The position numbers were made by a program, and so were the translations under genes. From Halichondria panicea (Eukaryota; Porifera; Demospongiae; Suberitida; Halichondriidae): a stretch of DNA of 64,000 nt. The stretch is from positions 5,828,042-5,892,041 of the forward strand of contig NC_087377.1 in NCBI RefSeq assembly GCF_963675165.1, written 5' to 3'. The notes under the pieces are model-generated. The model saw only the letters and a program-made list of their open reading frames with translations. It searched no databases and was not told the DNA's origin. Positions 2,951 through 54,200 of the stretch are shown one piece after another (the stretch's first letter is position 1; each line of letters begins with the position of its first letter).

Positions 2951-4240
2951 GTTGGCCACGCTTGAGTTGGGGGATCTCCGGCAGCACCACGATGGTGTTC
3001 GGGGATTTGCTGGGCAACACAACTGACGCCGCCAGCGTGCATGCATGGATCATACACAATATACGTATCTAGCAGTTCTTAATTACAATCTAGTCCCAAG
3101 TAAATTTATATTTCAGTAGTACATGTAGTGTCGCATAATTATGTTTACATTACAATCAATCGCTTGCAATATTTTATTTATCACGAGGCAGAGCTCAGCA
3201 AGGGAGAGACAGTATACGACAGATGTGTCGCTAAGTTCCTTGATGTCCATGACAGAATAAGCAAGGAACTCACCTCGATGTATATGACGAAGCAGTTACA
3301 ACTTAGCAAATGCAAGGACAGAAATAGTGACTAGTAAGAGCAGAGCAACCATATGTAGCATGGAAAATCTCCCCCTTGCTGACATTCTCTTTCGAATTGC
3401 CCTGCTGGTTTATCTCCATAAAAGAACATCGATGTTACGTTACAACAATGTACATCGAGAGGTGTGTATTTGCTAACAATGGTGCAAAGAATGGAGGAAC
3501 TAGTATTACGCACTCCTCATATAATTTACATTTATTTTGTAATTCATATTAGTATAATTATGACAGGTCTGTAAAGCACTATCATTTCAGCCACTGTACT
3601 TTTTATACACTTTCCAGAATGCATGGAAAAATTACATTAACTTTGATGTACCATCTGTAGCTAATGTATTTGCCTCGCTACTGGAAGGACAGTACCTTGT
3701 TAACCCAATAAGGGGATATCCCATGCACCCATACAAGGCCGGTGATTAAAAATACAGAAAGAGGGTGTGTCACTTGATTATTTAATTTCTAAATTCTTTC
3801 TGTGATGTTCACTTGAACATGGAGGGTATGGTGTTTGCTGTGCTGGGAGTCATGGTCCCTTCTCTGTATCAAATTATAATTATTAAGGATATTGGATTAG
3901 GCACTCTTTTAGACGTAATGCTATTTGTCTTTCTACAATAGCCGATAATCTCTTCCGCTGATTTAGAATTCATTTTGCTTATCCATTGCAAGTGTGGAAG
4001 CACTACTGCCATTAGTATGTTTTGTCAAAAGTATTGTGTTGTAATGACTTAATAGTAACGACTTAATTGTTGTAGTGAACACCATCTCTTAATTATTTTG
4101 TATAAACGTTTATTGTATGAAGGTAGCTAAAACTCAATTGATAATCTTCTCAAGAAAATTTTCCGCTACCATCTAAATCAATTTGAGAGGGGTGGACCTT
4201 GAGAAATCGGAGTAACAATTATACTAGGATCTCTCAAGTG
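2951..4240. other. No firm gene; one weak candidate exon
   Basis: The only stretch with some coding character is 3128-3334 (+), a 68-codon frame with a charged, probably helical segment (around [18 protein letters not shown]). I could not join it to any other exon. The rest is AT-rich with no recognisable protein or RNA gene. Confidence 0.3.
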
Positions 4241-4700
4241 GAAGACACATGCACACTAGAATTGATTCCCTTGCAAATATTGAGCATCTTCCTGCCTGTT
4301 ACCGCAACAAAGCTTTTCTTCTCGTTTGTCTGCCCCCACTTGGACTACTGTTTAATGGTGTGACACTCATGCAACTCCTCCACGAGCCAGAAATTACAAA
4401 ACTATGGCATGCATGTAATCCTGGGAAAGCCACCAAGGACTCCCAGCTCCTCCCTGCAACAGCAGCTAAACTGGTCAACCTTCCATCAGAGGAGACACAA
4501 TCTGAAGCAAGCTAGTACACAGGTGTGTTGGCACCACCCTCAAAGTTCACTCGTAACTCAACCACTTATACAACAAGAGGAGCCGTTAATTTCTACATTA
4601 ATAGACCCAATACGAATTACTACAGAACTACGTTTGAATACCAAGGAGCATTTCACTATAATTGTCTTCCTATAGAGATGAGAGTTATAACATGAGCTCC
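4241..4700. other. Two short overlapping plus-strand ORFs, unrecognised
   Basis: Frames at 4249-4515 and 4409-4675 (88 codons each) overlap in different phases. Neither resembles a family I recognise, and no splice-phase-consistent partner exons were found. They may be chance ORFs or an old element. Confidence 0.25.
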
Positions 4701-4959
4701 TTCATGTCGAACTTCTGCTACCATATCAATCCCACGACTTGTGTTCTTGAATTTATGTTTTTACCTGTCATGTTGACTTTTGTTTTGCTTTGTTTTGTTT
4801 TTTTGTCTTATGCTTATAATTATACAGGACCCACATGAAAACCCACATCCATCTAACTTAATTGTTGGGTCACTAATTCAGTCAGAGTAATAATTATAAT
4901 TATTACATACTTCGTCATTATATAATTACCACGGGTGTAGTAGTTGGTTTGTGTGTGAT

Positions 4960-5480
4960 ATGTGAGTCTAAAGTGGCAGCTTTCGATGTTAAAGCTTCGC
5001 TGACTAATAAAAGCGAGCAAAATGTAGCTTGATCAGAACTTGTGAACTTTGCACATCGGTTATTTAGTTACAGCTGAAATGATCCTGTACCAGGAACAAT
5101 GGAACAGGGTCACTAAAGAAGAAAGCTAGAATTATCTAGCGCCTGCTGACTGCGTATTTGCAGCTGAAGTGATCCCGTACCAGGAATATATAGTAGACAG
5201 CTAAAATTGTGACTGGTTGTTCGCTGACTCTGAATCCTATACTCCAGCCTGGCAGGAGCCATACTTCTCTAAGTCTAAGACTCCAGGCTTCTTTGCTGTG
5301 ATCCCAGTCCACAGTGCATGTCTCATGTGACATGTATCACTCAATGTTTCAGCATGCCTCCAGACCAGTCTGGTTTAGTCTTGAGTTGCTGTGCTAGTCA
5401 TACATGCACTGCATTATCACTCTTCTGATTTCTTTATTATCATGTCACCAGCCGAGGGTTTGCACTTTAGTGCTTTAGTT
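4960..5480. repeat. Dispersed repeat family A, copy 1
   Basis: Contains the ordered landmarks of a repeat seen again at about 5500, 35340 and 57715: 'gatgttaaagcttcg', 'agctgaagtgatcc(t/c)gtaccagg', 'gagccatacttctct', 'ctccaggcttctt' and the terminal 'gccgagggtttgcacttta'. Copies are several percent diverged and carry indels. No long ORF is present, so it is a non-autonomous element of unknown class. Confidence 0.6.
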
Positions 5481-5499
5481 TGTCTGTTTGTAATATGTG

Positions 5500-6105
5500 A
5501 ATCTGCTTACCTGGATGCCATAGCACTGCGTTTACAGCATGGATAGCCTTCACACAACAAGTCATTAGTTTTAATAGGCAGAATTTGATGTTAAACCTTG
5601 TTGTCAAATAAAAACAAGCAAGAGCTAAGAAGCTTGTGACTGGGTCTGCTTACCTGGATGCTCTAGCACTGCGTTTACAGCCTCCACACAACAAGTTAGT
5701 ACTTCTAATAGTGGCAGCTTTCGGTGTTAAAGCTTCGTTGTCTAATGAAAACGAGCAAAATGTAGCTTGAACAGCTTCACACGGGTTATTTACAACTGAA
5801 GTGATCTTGTACCAGGAACAATGGAACAGGGTCACTAAAGTAGAAAGCTATAATTATTATAGCTCCTGCTATTGGTAGCTGACTCTGGGATCGCAGGACA
5901 CCTGGGGCCATACTTCTCTGAGACTCCAGGCTTCTTGCTGTGATCCTAATCCACAGTGCATATATATATCAGTCTGGTTTAGTTTTGAGTTTTGAGTTGC
6001 TGTGCTAGACAATTAAGCCATACATGATCACTATATGCACTGCATTATGTCACTCTTTTATAATCATGTCACCAGCTGAGGGTTTGCACTTTAGTGCTCT
6101 AGTTT
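5500..6105. repeat. Dispersed repeat family A, copy 2 (composite)
   Basis: Direct second copy next to copy 1. It starts with the 'tgcttacctggatgccatag' block, which itself appears twice (about 5506 and 5647), then 'cttcgttgtctaatgaaaac', 'gatcttgtaccaggaacaat' and ends in 'gctgagggtttgcacttta' at about 6075-6095. The doubled head suggests nested or tandem insertion. Confidence 0.55.
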
Positions 6106-7368
6106 ACTGTGTGGTCCAGTATGCAGGAAACCAGAGGTGGGAAACTGAAGGAGTGGGAAGTGATTGACGATTGTTGCTGCAGCATCGGCACTTATTGTGA
6201 GCATGCATGTGCAAGTGGTTATAGTGTGTTTGGCATGCGCAAGCGGTAATGTGTTTGAGACTAGCTACAGGTAGTGAAGGATCAATGAAGTGCAAGTGAG
6301 ACTTTCTATAGGCTTTTACTGCGACAGATACTAGTGTCAAGCTGTGGCAAGTTTGACGATGAAAGTGTTGAATGAGAATATCTCTTTGATGGAGGAGGGG
6401 CTGGGGCCTGTGGTATCAGTTCTGGCTTGTTTGTGACTGTTGGAGCCACATCTTGTGTGAAGTTCTTTCTTAGGGAGTCATCCATTACACATGCACTGTG
6501 TCTTGAGTTTTTGCAGAGCTTTTTAGATTGTAAGGTGCTTTATTATATAAGAGTGGGTTAGGGATACCCTTGAATCAAACCTTTGTACATTAATTGTGCA
6601 AGACGCCACATTTTGATTTGCAAAATAATGCAGTTAATAATTATAATAATTATATGCATTGTAAGAGTGCATAGGAAAACTTGTCTATGCATACATGCAT
6701 GCAGCGTTGCTGCTCTGTTTAAAAGTTAGCTCTACTGATGCAGCAGCCATTACTGAAGGATATCAAAGATAGACACATGATGGAAGAACATGCATTACAT
6801 TTCATATATAAATAATAGTTAGATTTGCTGTGATTTTGTTTTCCATTAGTTTCTTTTTGTGGGCTGTTTCAAACCCAATTACAGGAATAACTGTTTGTCC
6901 ATCAGCCAGTTCTCCCTAGACTGTAACAGCAAACAAATTCAGCCCAAGTATGCAAGAGAAGCTGCAATGGTTGCAAATCAAATTGTTTGGAACATCACCC
7001 CATTGATGCACCTATAATGAAAGGAATAAAAGCGGGATGTAAAATAAAACATCATAAAGTTTGGACAGTTTAAAATTAATTTCACCTTCAACAGTTGAAA
7101 TCTTATTTTGGAAACACCGTACAGAATGTACTGAACAATACACAGCATCATGATCACTATAGTACACATCTCGTACTTGAACTACTACATCACCGCTTAT
7201 CTAGTGTATCAACGTCACTGCAGAGTATGATAACATGATTACACATTAATTGACAAATAAATGATTTACTGTAAGAAATACAAGTTTGTGATAAATACAC
7301 GCCTCTTAGTTTTCTTCGGGGCACAGAATCAGGCCGGACCTGCTATTGGATTCCATACTCATTATGGC
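6106..7368. other. Intergenic, nothing recognised
   Basis: AT-rich with short ORFs on both strands (longest 78 codons, 6340-6104 minus). No family similarity, splice-consistent exon set, RNA gene or clear inverted-repeat element was seen. Confidence 0.4.
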
Positions 7369-45204: not shown

Positions 45205-48200
45205 TTATTGACTTTTGAGGACATCGTCAAAAGCCTCCAGGAACATGTTTGCATGCCTTGGCTCAAAGACAAGAGCAGGTCTGAATCTGATGGCCAGTTC
45301 ACCTGAACCTCCCACCTGGAATCCTGTGTGTTTAGGGGGAGGGGGATTAATATAATTAAGTGAAAAAAATAAAGGTGTCTAGAAATTAAATCGGGAAGAG
45401 AGAATTCCAGGACCCTTATGCTTTGTAGCCCACTGAGCTACAAGTACATCAACGTTAAAAGCGTTTAGGCACTTCTCGATCAGTTAAACAGGTCAAGCTG
45501 TACATGGCAGCCTGTACACGAGGCTAGAGGAGTGTTGGTACACTCGAGGTTACGTAATGCACTCGGCTTCCCTGTTATTAGCAGGCGCGTGATCTATATC
45601 CGGACACACAGTCAATTTATCAGTCGGCAGCCTATGTTAATATTATTAATGACCATGTGTGCTTAATCGCGTGCCTGGATTGTCTAGGTGTATACCTATA
45701 GACAATCATCACTGCATGCATATAAAACACTTTTAATTAATGCATGTTCGCTCGAATCAACTGAGCACATAAGCTCACATGATCTATACAATCTCTGCTG
45801 AAGTGTGGATTTAAAGCACAGTCATGTGATCAGTTACTAACAAACCTTTATTCTTGAGCTGTCCTACAAGTTTGTCCCTGGTAGCAGAATCATGACAATC
45901 AATGGCACAAAAGGTACCTGCTCCCCTAGCACTGTGCACCAGCGACGGATGCATACCCTACAATTAGATACGATCGAGAGTACTCTTGACACGATAGACC
46001 ATTATTAAATTGTTGTCTAGGGAAAAATGCATGTGATGAATTGTCATAATTATTACAAAGTGATCATTATTGTAAACTATCGACATACTGAGTACAAAAA
46101 ACACAATTTCGATGTTCATAATCCTATGTAACGATCCTCATTATTCTTGGCTATTCACTTTAATAGGACAAATAAATACAAGTGGCAGTTCTTCAGCACG
46201 ATACTGTACATTGTATTTACGCGGAATCACTTATTGTTCATTGTGGTCGGAGATTAAAGGATTGTATTACTGTTGTAAGTACAGTACATGCCTGCGTGAC
46301 ATCAATATACCTGGATGATATCAGGAGCACATTACAGAAGGAGTGTCTAACTATGCATGGGTTCGGAAATCGCATCTCGTGTGCTTTCGTAAACGCCGCA
46401 TTGCCTTATAAGAGTGTGTGTAAGTACTGTGTACATAAATTATACTTCAGAATGCTCCGTCTCACATATCAATGTGGTATTGGCCTCCAATTCCGCTCAA
46501 TCAGCTTTTTTTGTAGATTACACATTCGTTTAAATAGATATAGTTGCGCTAAATAGAAAGTGCGTCCTGCCCACGTTGTCCACGTGGTACTCATACTATA
46601 AAAGTCGCGCATCCCTCATAATCATCGGCCTTTTTTCAAGCTCGATCAGCTGTTCAAGTTTCAAGTTTCACTCAAAAGTCAATGGATCCTTCAAGTATCC
46701 CAACAAGAGAAGAGGCAGCAGAGCTCCTCCGTTCCGTCGGCATAGACCAGCAACAGATCGACGCCATACTCGATCATCCAATGGAGCAGAGTCCTTGAGA
46801 TGGTGACGGGCCTGAGCCAGAGGCTCACTCGCCTGGATAACACTGGACCCTCTACCGAGGAATCACAGTCTTCTCCACCAGCCCTCCCCATCGTGAGTGG
46901 AACTTCATGGGCAGATCGCCCAAATGATTCATCAGAGATGAATTACCAGGATGAGTCCTACCGTTACAACGGATACTGGGACGAGCCAGAACCACCTGCA
47001 GCTCTAATGGAGGTGTCAGAGAACACTGCTGCACTTCTAAAGACTGCATTTGGAAAAGCAATTTCCAACCAGGAGAGGCAGAGCCTCAGGAAACCCTTCC
47101 CTGCTCCCAGAGTGGACCATACGAAGTGCCCTAAGCTGGACAGAGTCCTGAAGGGAAACATCTCCAAGGAAACTAAGGACAGAGACAATATGCTGGCAAA
47201 GGCACAGACCCTATTCCTCGATGCAGTAGCCCCACTCTCAAACCTCCTCGAGAGCGTTAATACCGGGAATTTGACACCTGAGGTGTCAGCTAATGCTGTG
47301 AAAACAGCTCTCGGGCTGCTAGGAAATGCCTTAGCGAACCTGTCTAAGGAAAGGAGAAAACTGGTAGTGAAAGACCTCAACAAAGATGCCAGCTCTCTGG
47401 CTGAGGACGATGAGATACTTACAGAGGCAGCTCCAATGCTATTTGGAGAAGGGTTTGAGCAGAAGCTCAAGAACCATGTGGAGGCAGTAAGATGCCTCAG
47501 AAAATCCTCCACAAACTCTGGCGGCAGCAGCAGCCAATTTTTTTCGAGGGAGCCGTCCCCACGGGAGCTACCAACGTGGGGGCGGCCAGAACAGAAGGTT
47601 TCAAAGCTCCAGAGGAGGCAGAAGATACCAACCTTACCAGAAGGAGAACCAGTTCCGGAACTCCCAACTCCCAAAGACCCCAACCTAGTCAGAGACTCAG
47701 TAAAGACAATATGTATCAATGCACGTATAAAAAATCAGGTTTTACAAAAGAATTTGTTATCCCAAATGTTGAACATGGGGGTCTCAGACATGGCAATAGA
47801 ACTTGCCGCATGCAAACACCCTCCAGCAGGGAAGCTAAGACATGCCACAAAGAATTGGCGGGCAATTACCCAGGACAGCTGGGTTCTGGGAGCAGTAACG
47901 GGTTTCAAAATCCCCTTCGTGGGACAACCCTATCAAACACAACCCCCGACAACGTCGGCGCAAACCATGGCAGACCAAGCCGTGATGGCTGCAGAGATAC
48001 AGTCAATGATAGAAAAACAGGCAATTCAAACATCAACCCCCAGAGGGGGTTTCATTTCCAGCATGTTCCTGGTCCCCAAAAAAGACGGTGGCCAGAGGCC
48101 AGTAATCAACCTAAAACGTCTAAACGAATTTGTACACACAGAACACTTCAAAATGGAAGGTATTCATGTGGTGAAGGACACAATTTGCAGAGGGGATTGG

Positions 48201-51200
48201 ATGGTAAAAGTCGACCTCAAGGACGCCTATTTTGCAGTCCCGATCCACAAGGATCACAGACAATACCTGAAATTTCAATTTCAGGGGACGACTTATCAAT
48301 TTCAATGCCTCCCCTTTGGTCTGTCCTGTGCTCCTTGGGCATTTACCAAGGTGACAAAACCCTTTGTGGCACTACTGCGCCAATTGGGGGTGAGACTAGT
48401 ATGTTACATAGACGACATCCTGATAATGGCAGAGTCTCCGGAGACAACTCTGGACCAGGGAAGAGCACTGATTTTCCTGTTGGAAAATCTGGGGTTCATA
48501 GTAAGCCACAAAAAGTGTGTCCTAGAACCCACACAGAAGATGGAGTTTCTGGGCTTCATGGTGGACTCAACGGAGCTCCAACTAAGTCTACCCCTAGCGA
48601 AGCTCAAGAAGATCCGATCAGAGGCCAGAGGTCTGTCGAGTCTTCAGCATACTACTGCAAGAAAACTATCTCAGTTCCTAGGGAAACTGACAGCAGCCAC
48701 CAAGGCAATTCCCCTGGCCCAACTATTTTACAGGGGACTCCAAAGAGCCCTCAATGCGAGTCTAGAAGACTCTCACCAGGACTACAATGCCACCCTCACA
48801 ATCTCGGAGGAGATTCAGTTAGAACTGATATGGTGGGAACACCACCTCCAGGAGTGGAATGGCAAGTCAATGATGACCCATTGCCCCTCACTGACCATAG
48901 AGTCAGACGCGTCAAAGAAAGGGTGGGGGGCAGTCTGTTCGGGACAGAGAACGGGGGGGCCATGGTCAAGGAAAGAACAGTCATGGCACATCAACTGCCT
49001 AGAGGCGTGGGCAGTGTTCCTAGCGGTCAAGTCCTTTGCCAGGGACAGGCAGGGAATCACGATCCCACTGAAGATAGACAACATGACATCAGTCGCCTAC
49101 ATCAACAATCTGGGGGGGACAGTGTCCCCCAATATGAACAGGATAGTCAAAGAACTATGGCTGTGGTGTCTCCAGAGGGACATTCACCTCCAAGCGGAGC
49201 ATCTAGCGGGTGTGCTAAACACAATAGCGGACGAGGAATCCAGAGTGATGAAAGACAGGTCCGACTGGATGCTAGACCAGAGAGTCTTCCAAACTATCCA
49301 AGCACAAACGGTCCACTGTCCATCGATCTATTTGCATCGAGACTGACAACACAGTTGCAGAACTTCTTCAGTTGGAAACCGGACCCAGAGGCAATAGCCT
49401 GCGATGCATTTCTTCAGAATTGGAGCACCATTCAGGGCCGCTTATATGCCAACCCTCCATGGCCACTGATAGGGAAGGCACTGAGCAAAGCGATACAAGA
49501 AAATGTGTCGCTGATAATTGTGACCCCTGTCTGGAAAGCACAACCATGGTACCCAGTACTTCTATCCCACCTGATAGACTTCCCATATCTAATCAGTCGG
49601 AGCCAGGACCTAATCCAACCAACATCCCCACAAACGATACCAGAGGTAGAACCTCAACTAGCCGTGTGGTCTATCTCAGGAAACGATTTTCTGACCAACA
49701 AATTTCTAAAGAGGGCACAGAGCTGCTGCTGGCATCTTGGAGACAAAAGTCAGCCAAGTCTTACGACTCACTCTTCAACAAGTGGGTTTGCTGGTGTAAC
49801 CAAAGGTCTACTGATCCCATTTCAGGACCTATAAGCGAAGTGGCAAACTTCCTAGCAGATCTTTTCCAGAAAGGATACGAGTACCGATCCCTCAATGCAT
49901 ATCGCTCGGCAATCTCTTCAGTCCATACAGAAATAGAGGGGTGCAGCGTCGGCCAACACCCTTTGATTAGTCGTATCCTGAAAGGAGCGTTTAACTCACG
50001 TCCCCCAAAACCTCGCTATGAAACCACATGGGATGTAGCCCAGGTGTTGAGATGGATGGAGAATCTGGGTCCCAATGATTCTTTGTCCATAGCGGACCTA
50101 TCTCACAAGCTTACCATGCTACTATGCCTCACTAGACCAATGCTCTCTAGTGACCTGGCGCAACTGGACCTTCGTTTTCGTCGCTATCTCCCAGAGGGAG
50201 TGTGTTTTCAATCAAGTGGCCTTGCGAAGCAAGACAAACCAGGAAAAGTAAGAACAGAGTTCTTCTTCCCTAAATTCGACCAGAAATCCATTGTATGTCC
50301 GGTAACAACCCTTAAAGCATACGAAAAAGCTACAAGTGGGGTCAGGACGTCCGACGGCGAGCAAAAACTCCTTTTAGCCGTAGTAAAACCACATAAGCCG
50401 ATTGCTCCATCTTCAGTCGCTCGATGGCTCAAGATGGCCCTGCAAAAATCAGGGGTGAATATCTCTATATTTAAAGGGCATTCGACAAGAGCAGCATCTG
50501 CCACAGCGGCAGTATCTGCGGGTATCCCTGTAGCAGAGATTCTACAAGCTGCAGACTGGAGCTCAGAGGGTATTTTCCAGAAGTTCTATTACAAACCTTC
50601 CAGAGATGTAAGTTTTGGCACTGCGGTGCTCTCTACAGAATAGGGTATGAGCTACAAAGAACCACATTGATATGTGAGACGGAGCATTCTGAAGTATAAT
50701 TACAGAATGGCTCAGCCCACGAAGTGGGCGCCAGCTATTCTGGATTATATGAGGAATGTGAAGTCGAGCATATCAATCACCCACCCAACGCCACCCTATG
50801 ATTATATAAGCATTAATTGCCGAGGCTTTCAAAAGGCCGATGATTATGAGGGATGCGCGACTTTTATAGTGTGAGTACCACGTGGACAACGTGGGCAGGA
50901 CGCACTTTCTATTTAGCGCAACTATATCTATTTAAACGAATGTGTAATCTACAAAAAAGGCTGATTGAGCGGAATTGGAGGCCAATACCACATAGATATG
51001 CTCGACTTCACATTCCTCATATAATCCAGAATACATGTAGCTGGCGCCCACTTCGTGGGCTGAGCCATTCTGTAATTACAGACCGCGGTCAGCCTGTGAA
51101 TATCATTATAAACGGATTTTGTATGTAGTGCAGCAGCAGGAGAGCTAGGTTGAGCCAGAAAGAGCTAAAATGAATAGCTAGATCTTTGATAAATGTTGGT

Positions 51201-54200
51201 ATACATCATGGAAGAGACTGTCATTGGTGAGGTACAGAAAGTTCTGTAAATAGGAGCATATCCAGTCACTTTGTACAGAGAAAGTTTGCTAGACTTAGAC
51301 TAACACATACTAGGCGTTTTGTTTTTGCAGTAGGGAGTCTTACTGGGGTTCTTAGAAGAGAGAGTTTACTTCCAGGTCTATAGCTAGCTAGCTAGCTAGC
51401 TGTAACTTTTCACTTTTATTGACCTATGCTGGTAAAAGTGCACCGTCAGCTCAATTAGCACTCGCCCGCAGACCCACTTAGTGGTTTTGCATATAAGGTC
51501 ATGCTTTGCAAACTTCCACGAGATGCGATTCCCGAGGTAAGACGCTCCTTCTGTAATGTGCTCCTGATGATATTGATATTACCCAGGATGCAAATTGATT
51601 CAACCTAAAGCACCACCCACCACCCTTTATAAGAAACAGGAGTGCATTGATGAGTGGTAAATCCCAATGCAGTCTGGCAATCTGATTGGTTGGAAAACAC
51701 CAACATTTTTGTAGCACATCATGTGCACCAACTCTTACAATGCTTAGCAAAAGTTTCACTGCTATAATATCTGTATCTGTATGCAAGTACACAATTAAGG
51801 CTAGGCAAGTATGCACACACACACCCAGTGGTGAGTGTGTGTGTGTACGTACATGTATAGTTGCCCAGTGACACGCATGCATACACATACACACTCAGAG
51901 AACTAACCTCTAACTTTTGCAGTCCAGTGAGCAGCACTTCACCAGTTTCCTTGACTTGACCCAGCAATTGTCTCTTGGTCATCTCGTTCACTATAGCACC
52001 CAGTACCACGGTCCTCATGTGGTCACCAACATATGTGTTGAAGATGCGGAAGGCCTTAGTTGGGGATTGAAAAAATGTTACGGCGAATATTAATCGAATT
52101 GAAAAAATGTTACGGCGAATATTAATCTTTCTCATGAGTGCAATCAATATACAGTAGCATTGCGTTATATGCATGAAAACAGCTCATACAATGTAAATAG
52201 TTTTGTGTCTAATTAGCAGTGTAATGTAACTACAATACAGCACTGAACTGCTAAACCCTCGGCTGGCTATTGACATGAATAATATCGCTCTATGGACAAT
52301 TAATGCCTCACAACCAGAGGAGTGTTGCATTAGTACAATGAGCATGGAAGCTGGCTAGCAGCAACTAAAAACTAAACACAGAAATCTTTACTGTCAGGTG
52401 TGAATGCTATGGGGAAGGCTTTGAGAGCGGCATTAGTCCCATAAATACACACATGGGTTTTATATTGTTCATGTAAGCATTACGTGTTTTGATTCAAAGC
52501 CACTTGAAGTTAGCCCTTCAGCCAACGTGCAAGTTACTAGACTATCGATGCTACATGTAATGTGGCATCCATGGTGAGCATGCACACTGTATTCTGGGTG
52601 AGCATGCATGCACACTCAGAATACACAAACGGACGGACAAATCAACAGACTACTCCATGTATAACCGGCGGGCCTACACGCCTCCGGTTAATTATAATCT
52701 ATAGGTCTCATATAAAACACATAATTATAGTGATCTGCCAGGAAGTCACCTCGTTAGTTCTTCGCTCACTGGTGTAGTAGAACCCTCCGATCTGCATTTT
52801 CTTGGCAAAAGTGACGAAGTCAGCAGGCTCTGGCAGATCCCAGGCCTCGTGTGCCCTAGGACAAAAGAACGCAAGGGTTAGCTACATATAATGGTCACAA
52901 TAAATGGCTAGCATAAAAAAGGAAAGCTTTGCGTACATAAAAAATGAGTCTATAGCCTCGCCCCCACACCCACTTCCGCCCCATTATTAAATTTTATCTC
53001 TGACTAAGCTGTACTACAGTAGTATTAGAGCCACTCTACATACCACATGTATCCAGTGCCCCCACAGCCAGTCTGTACCTCATCCACCATGAAACTGGCT
53101 CCGTACTACGTGCGTGCGTGAGAGGAGAAACGAAACAAGAATACGAACTCGTTCAATGCAGAAACTATTCACTCACTTTCTTGCAGATTGTTTGCAGCCC
53201 TTCGAAGAACTCTGGACTTGCATGCTTATCACCTGCATGTGTGTATGTTTGTAAGATCCATCCGGTATAACTACGTGACTTGTACATGTAACATAATTAT
53301 AACGGGACATTTTCGAAGGACACATTTTGCGGATTGCAATAAGCCATAAAATTTTACCTGGAAAATGTGTGTTTAATACAAAAAGGTAGGGCTGCATGCA
53401 CGCTCTCTGTAAATTTCTTTAATGCTTAAAATGAATACTCTTTTATACACACAAAAATTATACAAGTGTGCTTGCAGTTAGTCCCGGCGATTTCTAATGG
53501 TAGCTAGGAGAAACACGTACCGTACATGACTTTGTATAAATGTAGCAACTGATTGAATTGCTAGCAAATATACCGTTATCAGATACGTACCACCTTCAGC
53601 CTGGATGGGCTCGATGATGGCAGTGGCTATTGGAACACCATTCTTCTGGGAAGTCGAGAAATTATCCTCTACCTACAGAAGAAAGCATTGAACTACATGT
53701 ACATACATGTACAGTACATACATAATAATTATATAGAAAACACTTATACTTGTAGTCTTGAAATACAAATGCTACAGTAAGTGATAATAATAATAATTAT
53801 TGCATTGAATGGCCGAATCTTTCAAAGTCTTCAAGATAAATTGGGTCAAAGGAACCTTAATTTTTACTAGTATTGTGAAAACATGCATGTCATGTACAGA
53901 TGTGGTACATACAAAGCTGAAACTCCTACAAATTGCGAGATATGACAATGTTTGTATAGTACCTCTTCCAAGCACTTCTTCTCTTCCTGCTGGTTCTCCC
54001 GCACAAACTGGTCCAAGGGGTACTTGAGTTGGGGGAATGGGGCACAGGGCCAGTCCAGAGCGGGGATGTCCAACTTGTGGATCACCTTGCTATGAGTACA
54101 GGACAGAGTGGCTGATGTGTGTGTGTGGGGGGGGGGGCTATTGACGACATGTTAGCAGTACAGTCAAAAGCAAACAAAGTGCTTTTTGATACCCCAACTT

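Follow-up and report, generated by a model that had tools for sequence, protein, structure and literature searches.

A full-length DIRS1-like retrotransposon nested in a MITE within an ABAT intron of Halichondria panicea, probably incapable of mobilising itself

How did a retrotransposon that appears complete come to lie within the GABA-breakdown gene ABAT, can it still move, and could it affect the gene around it? These questions are raised by an element in the window, the 64,000-nucleotide stretch of Halichondria panicea DNA analysed here. The original prediction placed the element antisense between two ABAT coding exons. This arrangement held, as the element lies on the plus strand and the exons on either side lie on the minus strand and match pig GABA transaminase.

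51908 to 52040, minus strand: ABAT exon upstream of the insertion, matching pig GABA transaminase residues 333-386 (5′ border approximate)
45846 to 45957, minus strand: ABAT exon downstream of the insertion, matching residues 388-426
45205 to 45323, minus strand: last ABAT exon, with the stop codon, matching residues 421-459

Weaker Aminotran_3 matches were found further upstream on the strand of these exons. The intron that carries the element (45958-51907) is 5,950 bp long and has GT/AG borders. An exact 30-nt repeat, in two copies with 32-nt spacing, is present at 52066-52127; read along the ABAT strand, it comes just before the exon that adjoins the insertion.

The segment 46438-51078 is a full-length DIRS1-like retrotransposon of 4,641 bp. 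All the structural parts expected of a DIRS element were found at the predicted positions: inverted terminal repeats (ITRs), internal complementary regions (ICR), gag-RT-RNase H, the NPPW segment and the recombinase. The non-coding parts are as follows.

46438 to 51078, plus strand: the whole element; its ends could lie anywhere within the AATTA that element and target have in common (46438-46442 / 51074-51078)
46438 to 46634, plus strand: left terminal region, the left ITR with TATAAAA at 46597
50831 to 51078, minus strand: right ITR and right extension, with a minus-strand TATAAAA at 50862-50868
50661 to 50777, plus strand: ICR, left part 50661-50701 and right part 50697-50777, their 5-bp overlap being the complement of AATTA

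Repeat analysis gave ITR arms of 185 nt (46450-46634 and 50831-51015) that are 95% complementary, and pairwise alignment of the ITR core showed 3 mismatches in 170 aligned positions. The left ICR is an exact complement (41/41) of 46438-46478. The right ICR is exactly complementary to 51038-51078 over 50697-50737 and continues to 50777 against 50992-51033; aligned as a whole with the right end (50992-51078), it differs by one 6-nt insert and one mismatch. Chance inverted repeats were considered and rejected.

The sequence on both sides of the element belongs to another transposon, a nesting that had been missed earlier. The host, 609 bp long and with CAGGAGC ends, is a MITE-like transposon present in high copy in the same genome.

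46322 to 46437, plus strand: left part of the host MITE, starting with the terminal inverted repeat CAGGAGC; the 7-bp duplication ATGATAT lies just outside, at 46315-46321
51079 to 51566, plus strand: right part of the host MITE, with the 7-bp duplication ATGATAT at 51567-51573

The left flank, taken from about 46312, had at least 45 matches (the best 40 of 139 candidates were scored). For the right flank at least 58 matches were obtained in all (best 40 of 166 candidates scored), at least 40 of them long including the window and hence at least 39 long matches elsewhere. Ten of these 39 were fetched and compared with the occupied site. Empty sites were found: the two flanks are exactly 5 bp apart in nine of the ten MITE copies, the 5 bp being AATTA in six and AAGTA in three, and at the tenth (L020) the local alignment ended 4 nt short of the junction. 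A probe in which both flanks were joined by one AATTA spanned the junction in all ten copies, end to end in nine; at L027 the alignment begins at probe base 77. The 7-bp MITE duplications, read by eye, are exact in 6/10 copies and one base off in two. L027 could not be judged, and L028, which lies within a tandem array, is without the duplication.

These sites confirm the element ends to within the shared 5 bp. The target AATTA is the same five bases that occur once in the ICR junction (CTGTAATTATACTTCAG, complement strand), and therefore the insertion duplicated nothing and removed nothing. The left ends of the window element and of the separate copies L008, L009, L010 and L017 start ATTATACTTC after differing bases, and at the right end GTAATT is followed by A in L010 and L008 and by C in L017. 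ATT is the core common to the ends of the DIRS copies. Integration without target duplication fits the DIRS model as described in PMC3266345. Because the target itself is a repeat with many unoccupied copies, the no-duplication model could be tested against empty sites here with unusual clarity.

Could the element influence ABAT? Its position antisense in the intron, together with a TATAAAA in each ITR, on opposite strands and directed into the element, would allow the inverted promoters to make antisense or double-stranded RNA; alternatively, splice or poly(A) signals in the element could cut ABAT transcripts. The precedent is Dictyostelium DIRS-1, whose inverted repeats, according to PMC5633606, drive transcription in both directions and yield sense as well as antisense RNA. 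By analogy, antisense transcription from the element into ABAT is possible. Against an effect on the host, the exons on both sides keep their GT/AG borders and reading frame, and the default expectation is therefore that the element is simply removed with the intron. Thus, we consider it unlikely that this copy matters to the host.

The coding parts of the element are as follows.

46800 to 49346, plus strand: gag-RT-RNase H open frame of 848 amino acids, open to 49343, with the RT motif YIDD at 48405-48416
47459 to 49831, plus strand: second open frame without stops (about 16 in shuffles), overlapping RT-RNase H and entering the NPPW segment
49295 to 49834, plus strand: NPPW segment (presumed 'MT' domain, by position and motif), with NPPW at 49451-49462, in a frame different from that of RT-RNase H
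49276 to 50643, plus strand: tyrosine recombinase frame, open over 49276-50640, with HSTR at 50479-50490 and a leucine codon at 50143-50145

In Pfam searches the RT matched RVT_1 (E=8.9e-26). The RNase H match was weak (E=0.053, under the cut-off), and the Phage_integrase match of the recombinase (E=4e-5) was under the curated cut-off; the recombinase also matched Cre chains at E=0.0015. The NPPW segment gave no Pfam match. It sits where the MT domain of pol is expected, but in a frame other than that of RT-RNase H. The names RNase H and MT are used here presumptively, as they rest partly on motifs associated with such elements. Structure prediction of the recombinase gave a mean pLDDT of 37.8, a confidence too low for use.

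Other copies were sought in the same genome, and they exist, as predicted. A recombinase protein search (E<=1e-10) returned the window and one other locus. With RT-RNase H the window was followed by a copy on contig C17 and then by 14 matches at 28-33% identity, and with the NPPW segment by the C17 copy and a short match on C6. When the left end and the body were used as DNA queries, the C17 copy (about 3082505-3094256) was recovered, along with fragments or miniature copies at 16 more places. Within the limited sensitivity of these protein and DNA searches, the C17 copy, which has many indels, is the only other long copy, and a near-identical second copy was not found. In the viral contig collection, no pattern match to RT-RNase H relatives was obtained, and none of eight pattern matches to recombinase relatives was confirmed; in the genome contig collection, neither of two pattern matches to RT-RNase H relatives was confirmed.

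A 6.7-kb stretch carrying a Pao-type peptidase, RT and an integrase zinc domain interrupts the C17 copy. A BEL/Pao retrotransposon was recorded inside that copy at L001:3080-8282 (Peptidase_A17, E=3.9e-49). At four of the 16 places (L007, L008, L010 and L017) both ends are kept and the body is nearly all missing, with differing internal junctions. L007 and L008 are probably one event, because the flanks are common to both. Such miniature derivatives could be deletions between inverted repeats or mobilised short elements. DIRS gag-region fragments at L005, L006 and L011 are less similar (about 62-81% identity) than the ends are and may stem from older related families.

The window and C17 copies differ by 61 substitutions in 3205 sites away from gaps (1.9%), or 73 in 3510 in all. 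From the window to C17, C-to-T changes number 22 and T-to-C changes seven. Of the differences counted in gag, RT-RNase H, the NPPW segment and the recombinase, 16 are synonymous and 34 non-synonymous; the ratio is 1.12 (near 1) for RT-RNase H alone and 0.36 for gag. Dating by synonymous change was dropped, since the differences are too few and the overlapping frames blur their meaning.

Two small changes bear on mobility. The RT-RNase H frame of the window copy hits a stop at 49344, and the overlapping frame continues into the NPPW segment. Near 49.3 kb, where the two long overlapping frames swap partners, the window and C17 copies have a one-base length difference at the frame change. A single one-base length change would explain this exchange of partners by both frames. 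The simplest reading of the alignment is that pol once ran through RT-RNase H-NPPW, that the overlapping frame once ran into the recombinase, and that one length change broke both. In the C17 copy a separate base has been lost 22 nt upstream of this site, and the pol frame is continuous in neither copy; the ancestral continuous state is therefore inferred.

The second change is at codon 50143-50145, which encodes leucine in the window and arginine in the C17 copy. Arginine also occupies the aligned position in 11/11 other recombinases from the same genome. This column rests on a MAFFT alignment with adjacent gaps and on the C17 copy, as the profile match missed the arginine region. We take this residue to be the first catalytic arginine of the tyrosine recombinase. 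The row for Cre R173A in PMC4381057 gives no recombination constant. An assembly error at the frame break or at the leucine codon is something that only reads would exclude.

The alternative that the element is fully functional, the RNase H-NPPW frame change being a programmed frameshift and the leucine being tolerated, draws on the intact YIDD and HSTR motifs, the open frames and the small number of substitutions relative to the single other long copy. Recombinase motifs are also described as varying among DIRS elements (Piednoel et al., PMC3266345). However, a one-base difference from C17 falls exactly at the frame change, C17 carries the arginine, which the other recombinases of this genome share as well, and the searches gave a single long relative and nothing near-identical. 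Full function is thus quite improbable. An autonomous copy would need a continuous pol and a recombinase with a full active site, and here a frame change at about 49.3 kb and leucine in place of arginine were found instead. To judge from these two sites, the element probably cannot move by its own proteins. The earlier description of the element as nearly intact is correct for its anatomy but not for its coding.

The frame overlapping RT-RNase H was compared with shuffles that preserve protein and codon usage. Over 615 pol codons the +2 frame has no stops against a shuffle mean of 16.5, and none of 5000 shuffles reached zero; in a repeat run the mean was 16.3, with 0/2000 at zero. A chance origin of the frame was rejected. 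All control frames stayed within 2 s.d. of their shuffles: the +1 frame (51 stops against 45.0 expected, z 1.9), the gag part (z 0.5 and -1.0), the DIRS recombinase (z 0.7 and -1.9), and an Ngaro-like RT (z 0.1 and -0.4) and recombinase (z -1.3 and -1.0). Tentatively, and with somewhat less than an even chance of being right, the frame, free of stops over the roughly 1.85 kb that it shares with RT-RNase H, may encode a second protein under selection, corresponding to the 5′ part of the recombinase ORF, in which case one lesion would have broken both proteins here. If true, an animal-type genome would here carry a very long stretch that codes for two proteins. Long ORF overlap is recorded in PMC3266345 for half of 28 annotated DIRS1-like elements, and the window element shares this trait.

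Agreement among the inverted ends, the paired ICR, the RT, the recombinase and the empty sites bears out the original assignment as a full-length DIRS element. Another recombinase retrotransposon, of Ngaro or PAT type, is extremely improbable: Ngaro-like elements with about 30% RT identity do occur in this genome, but ITRs with a paired ICR are DIRS1-like, the Ngaro-like locus L029 has its recombinase frame directly after RT without an NPPW segment, and PAT-type split direct repeats are contradicted by inverted terminal repeats and by the lack of matching long direct repeats of the ends. Ngaro identity was rejected on the NPPW segment and the DIRS-type ITR/ICR. L029 and L030-L039 represent several families of Ngaro-like recombinase retrotransposons, in which the RT and recombinase frames are long and open.

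Comparison was made with the DIRS1-like elements as presented by Piednoel et al. 2011 (PMC3266345). The window element falls within their size range (3,974-6,283) and, like them, starts and ends with ATT, has an ICR pair (41 and 81 nt), is ordered RT-RNase H-NPPW-recombinase and lacks a target duplication. Unlike them, this copy has the RNase H/NPPW frame break, leucine at the first arginine and a 6-nt insert in the right extension. By description, NveDIRS6b of Nematostella (Table 3 of that paper) is similar in ICR sizes (40-82) and in the scale of the right extension, but it is 4,142 bp long and is listed there without long ORF overlap. Dictyostelium DIRS-1, as described in PMC5633606, likewise has inverted ends, an ICR and overlapping ORFs; promoter activity is known for DIRS-1 and only inferred for the window element.

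The following course of events is, taken as a whole, very likely. A DIRS1-like element would have been copied through RNA into circular DNA, a form expected from the published DIRS model, with joined ends carrying AATTA. The circle would then have recombined into an AATTA within the MITE already present in the ABAT intron, leaving no target duplication. Function would have been lost after insertion or already in the source copy, through the break of the RNase H-NPPW frame and the loss of the first catalytic arginine. The element is now most likely a non-autonomous passenger, although by analogy its inverted-end promoters could still make RNA on both strands. For ABAT, the element is a candidate for an antisense effect only. 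It represents one more low-copy family of an already known kind. Small changes can disable a copy whose length and open frames suggest that it is intact, and calls of 'intact' therefore need copy comparison.
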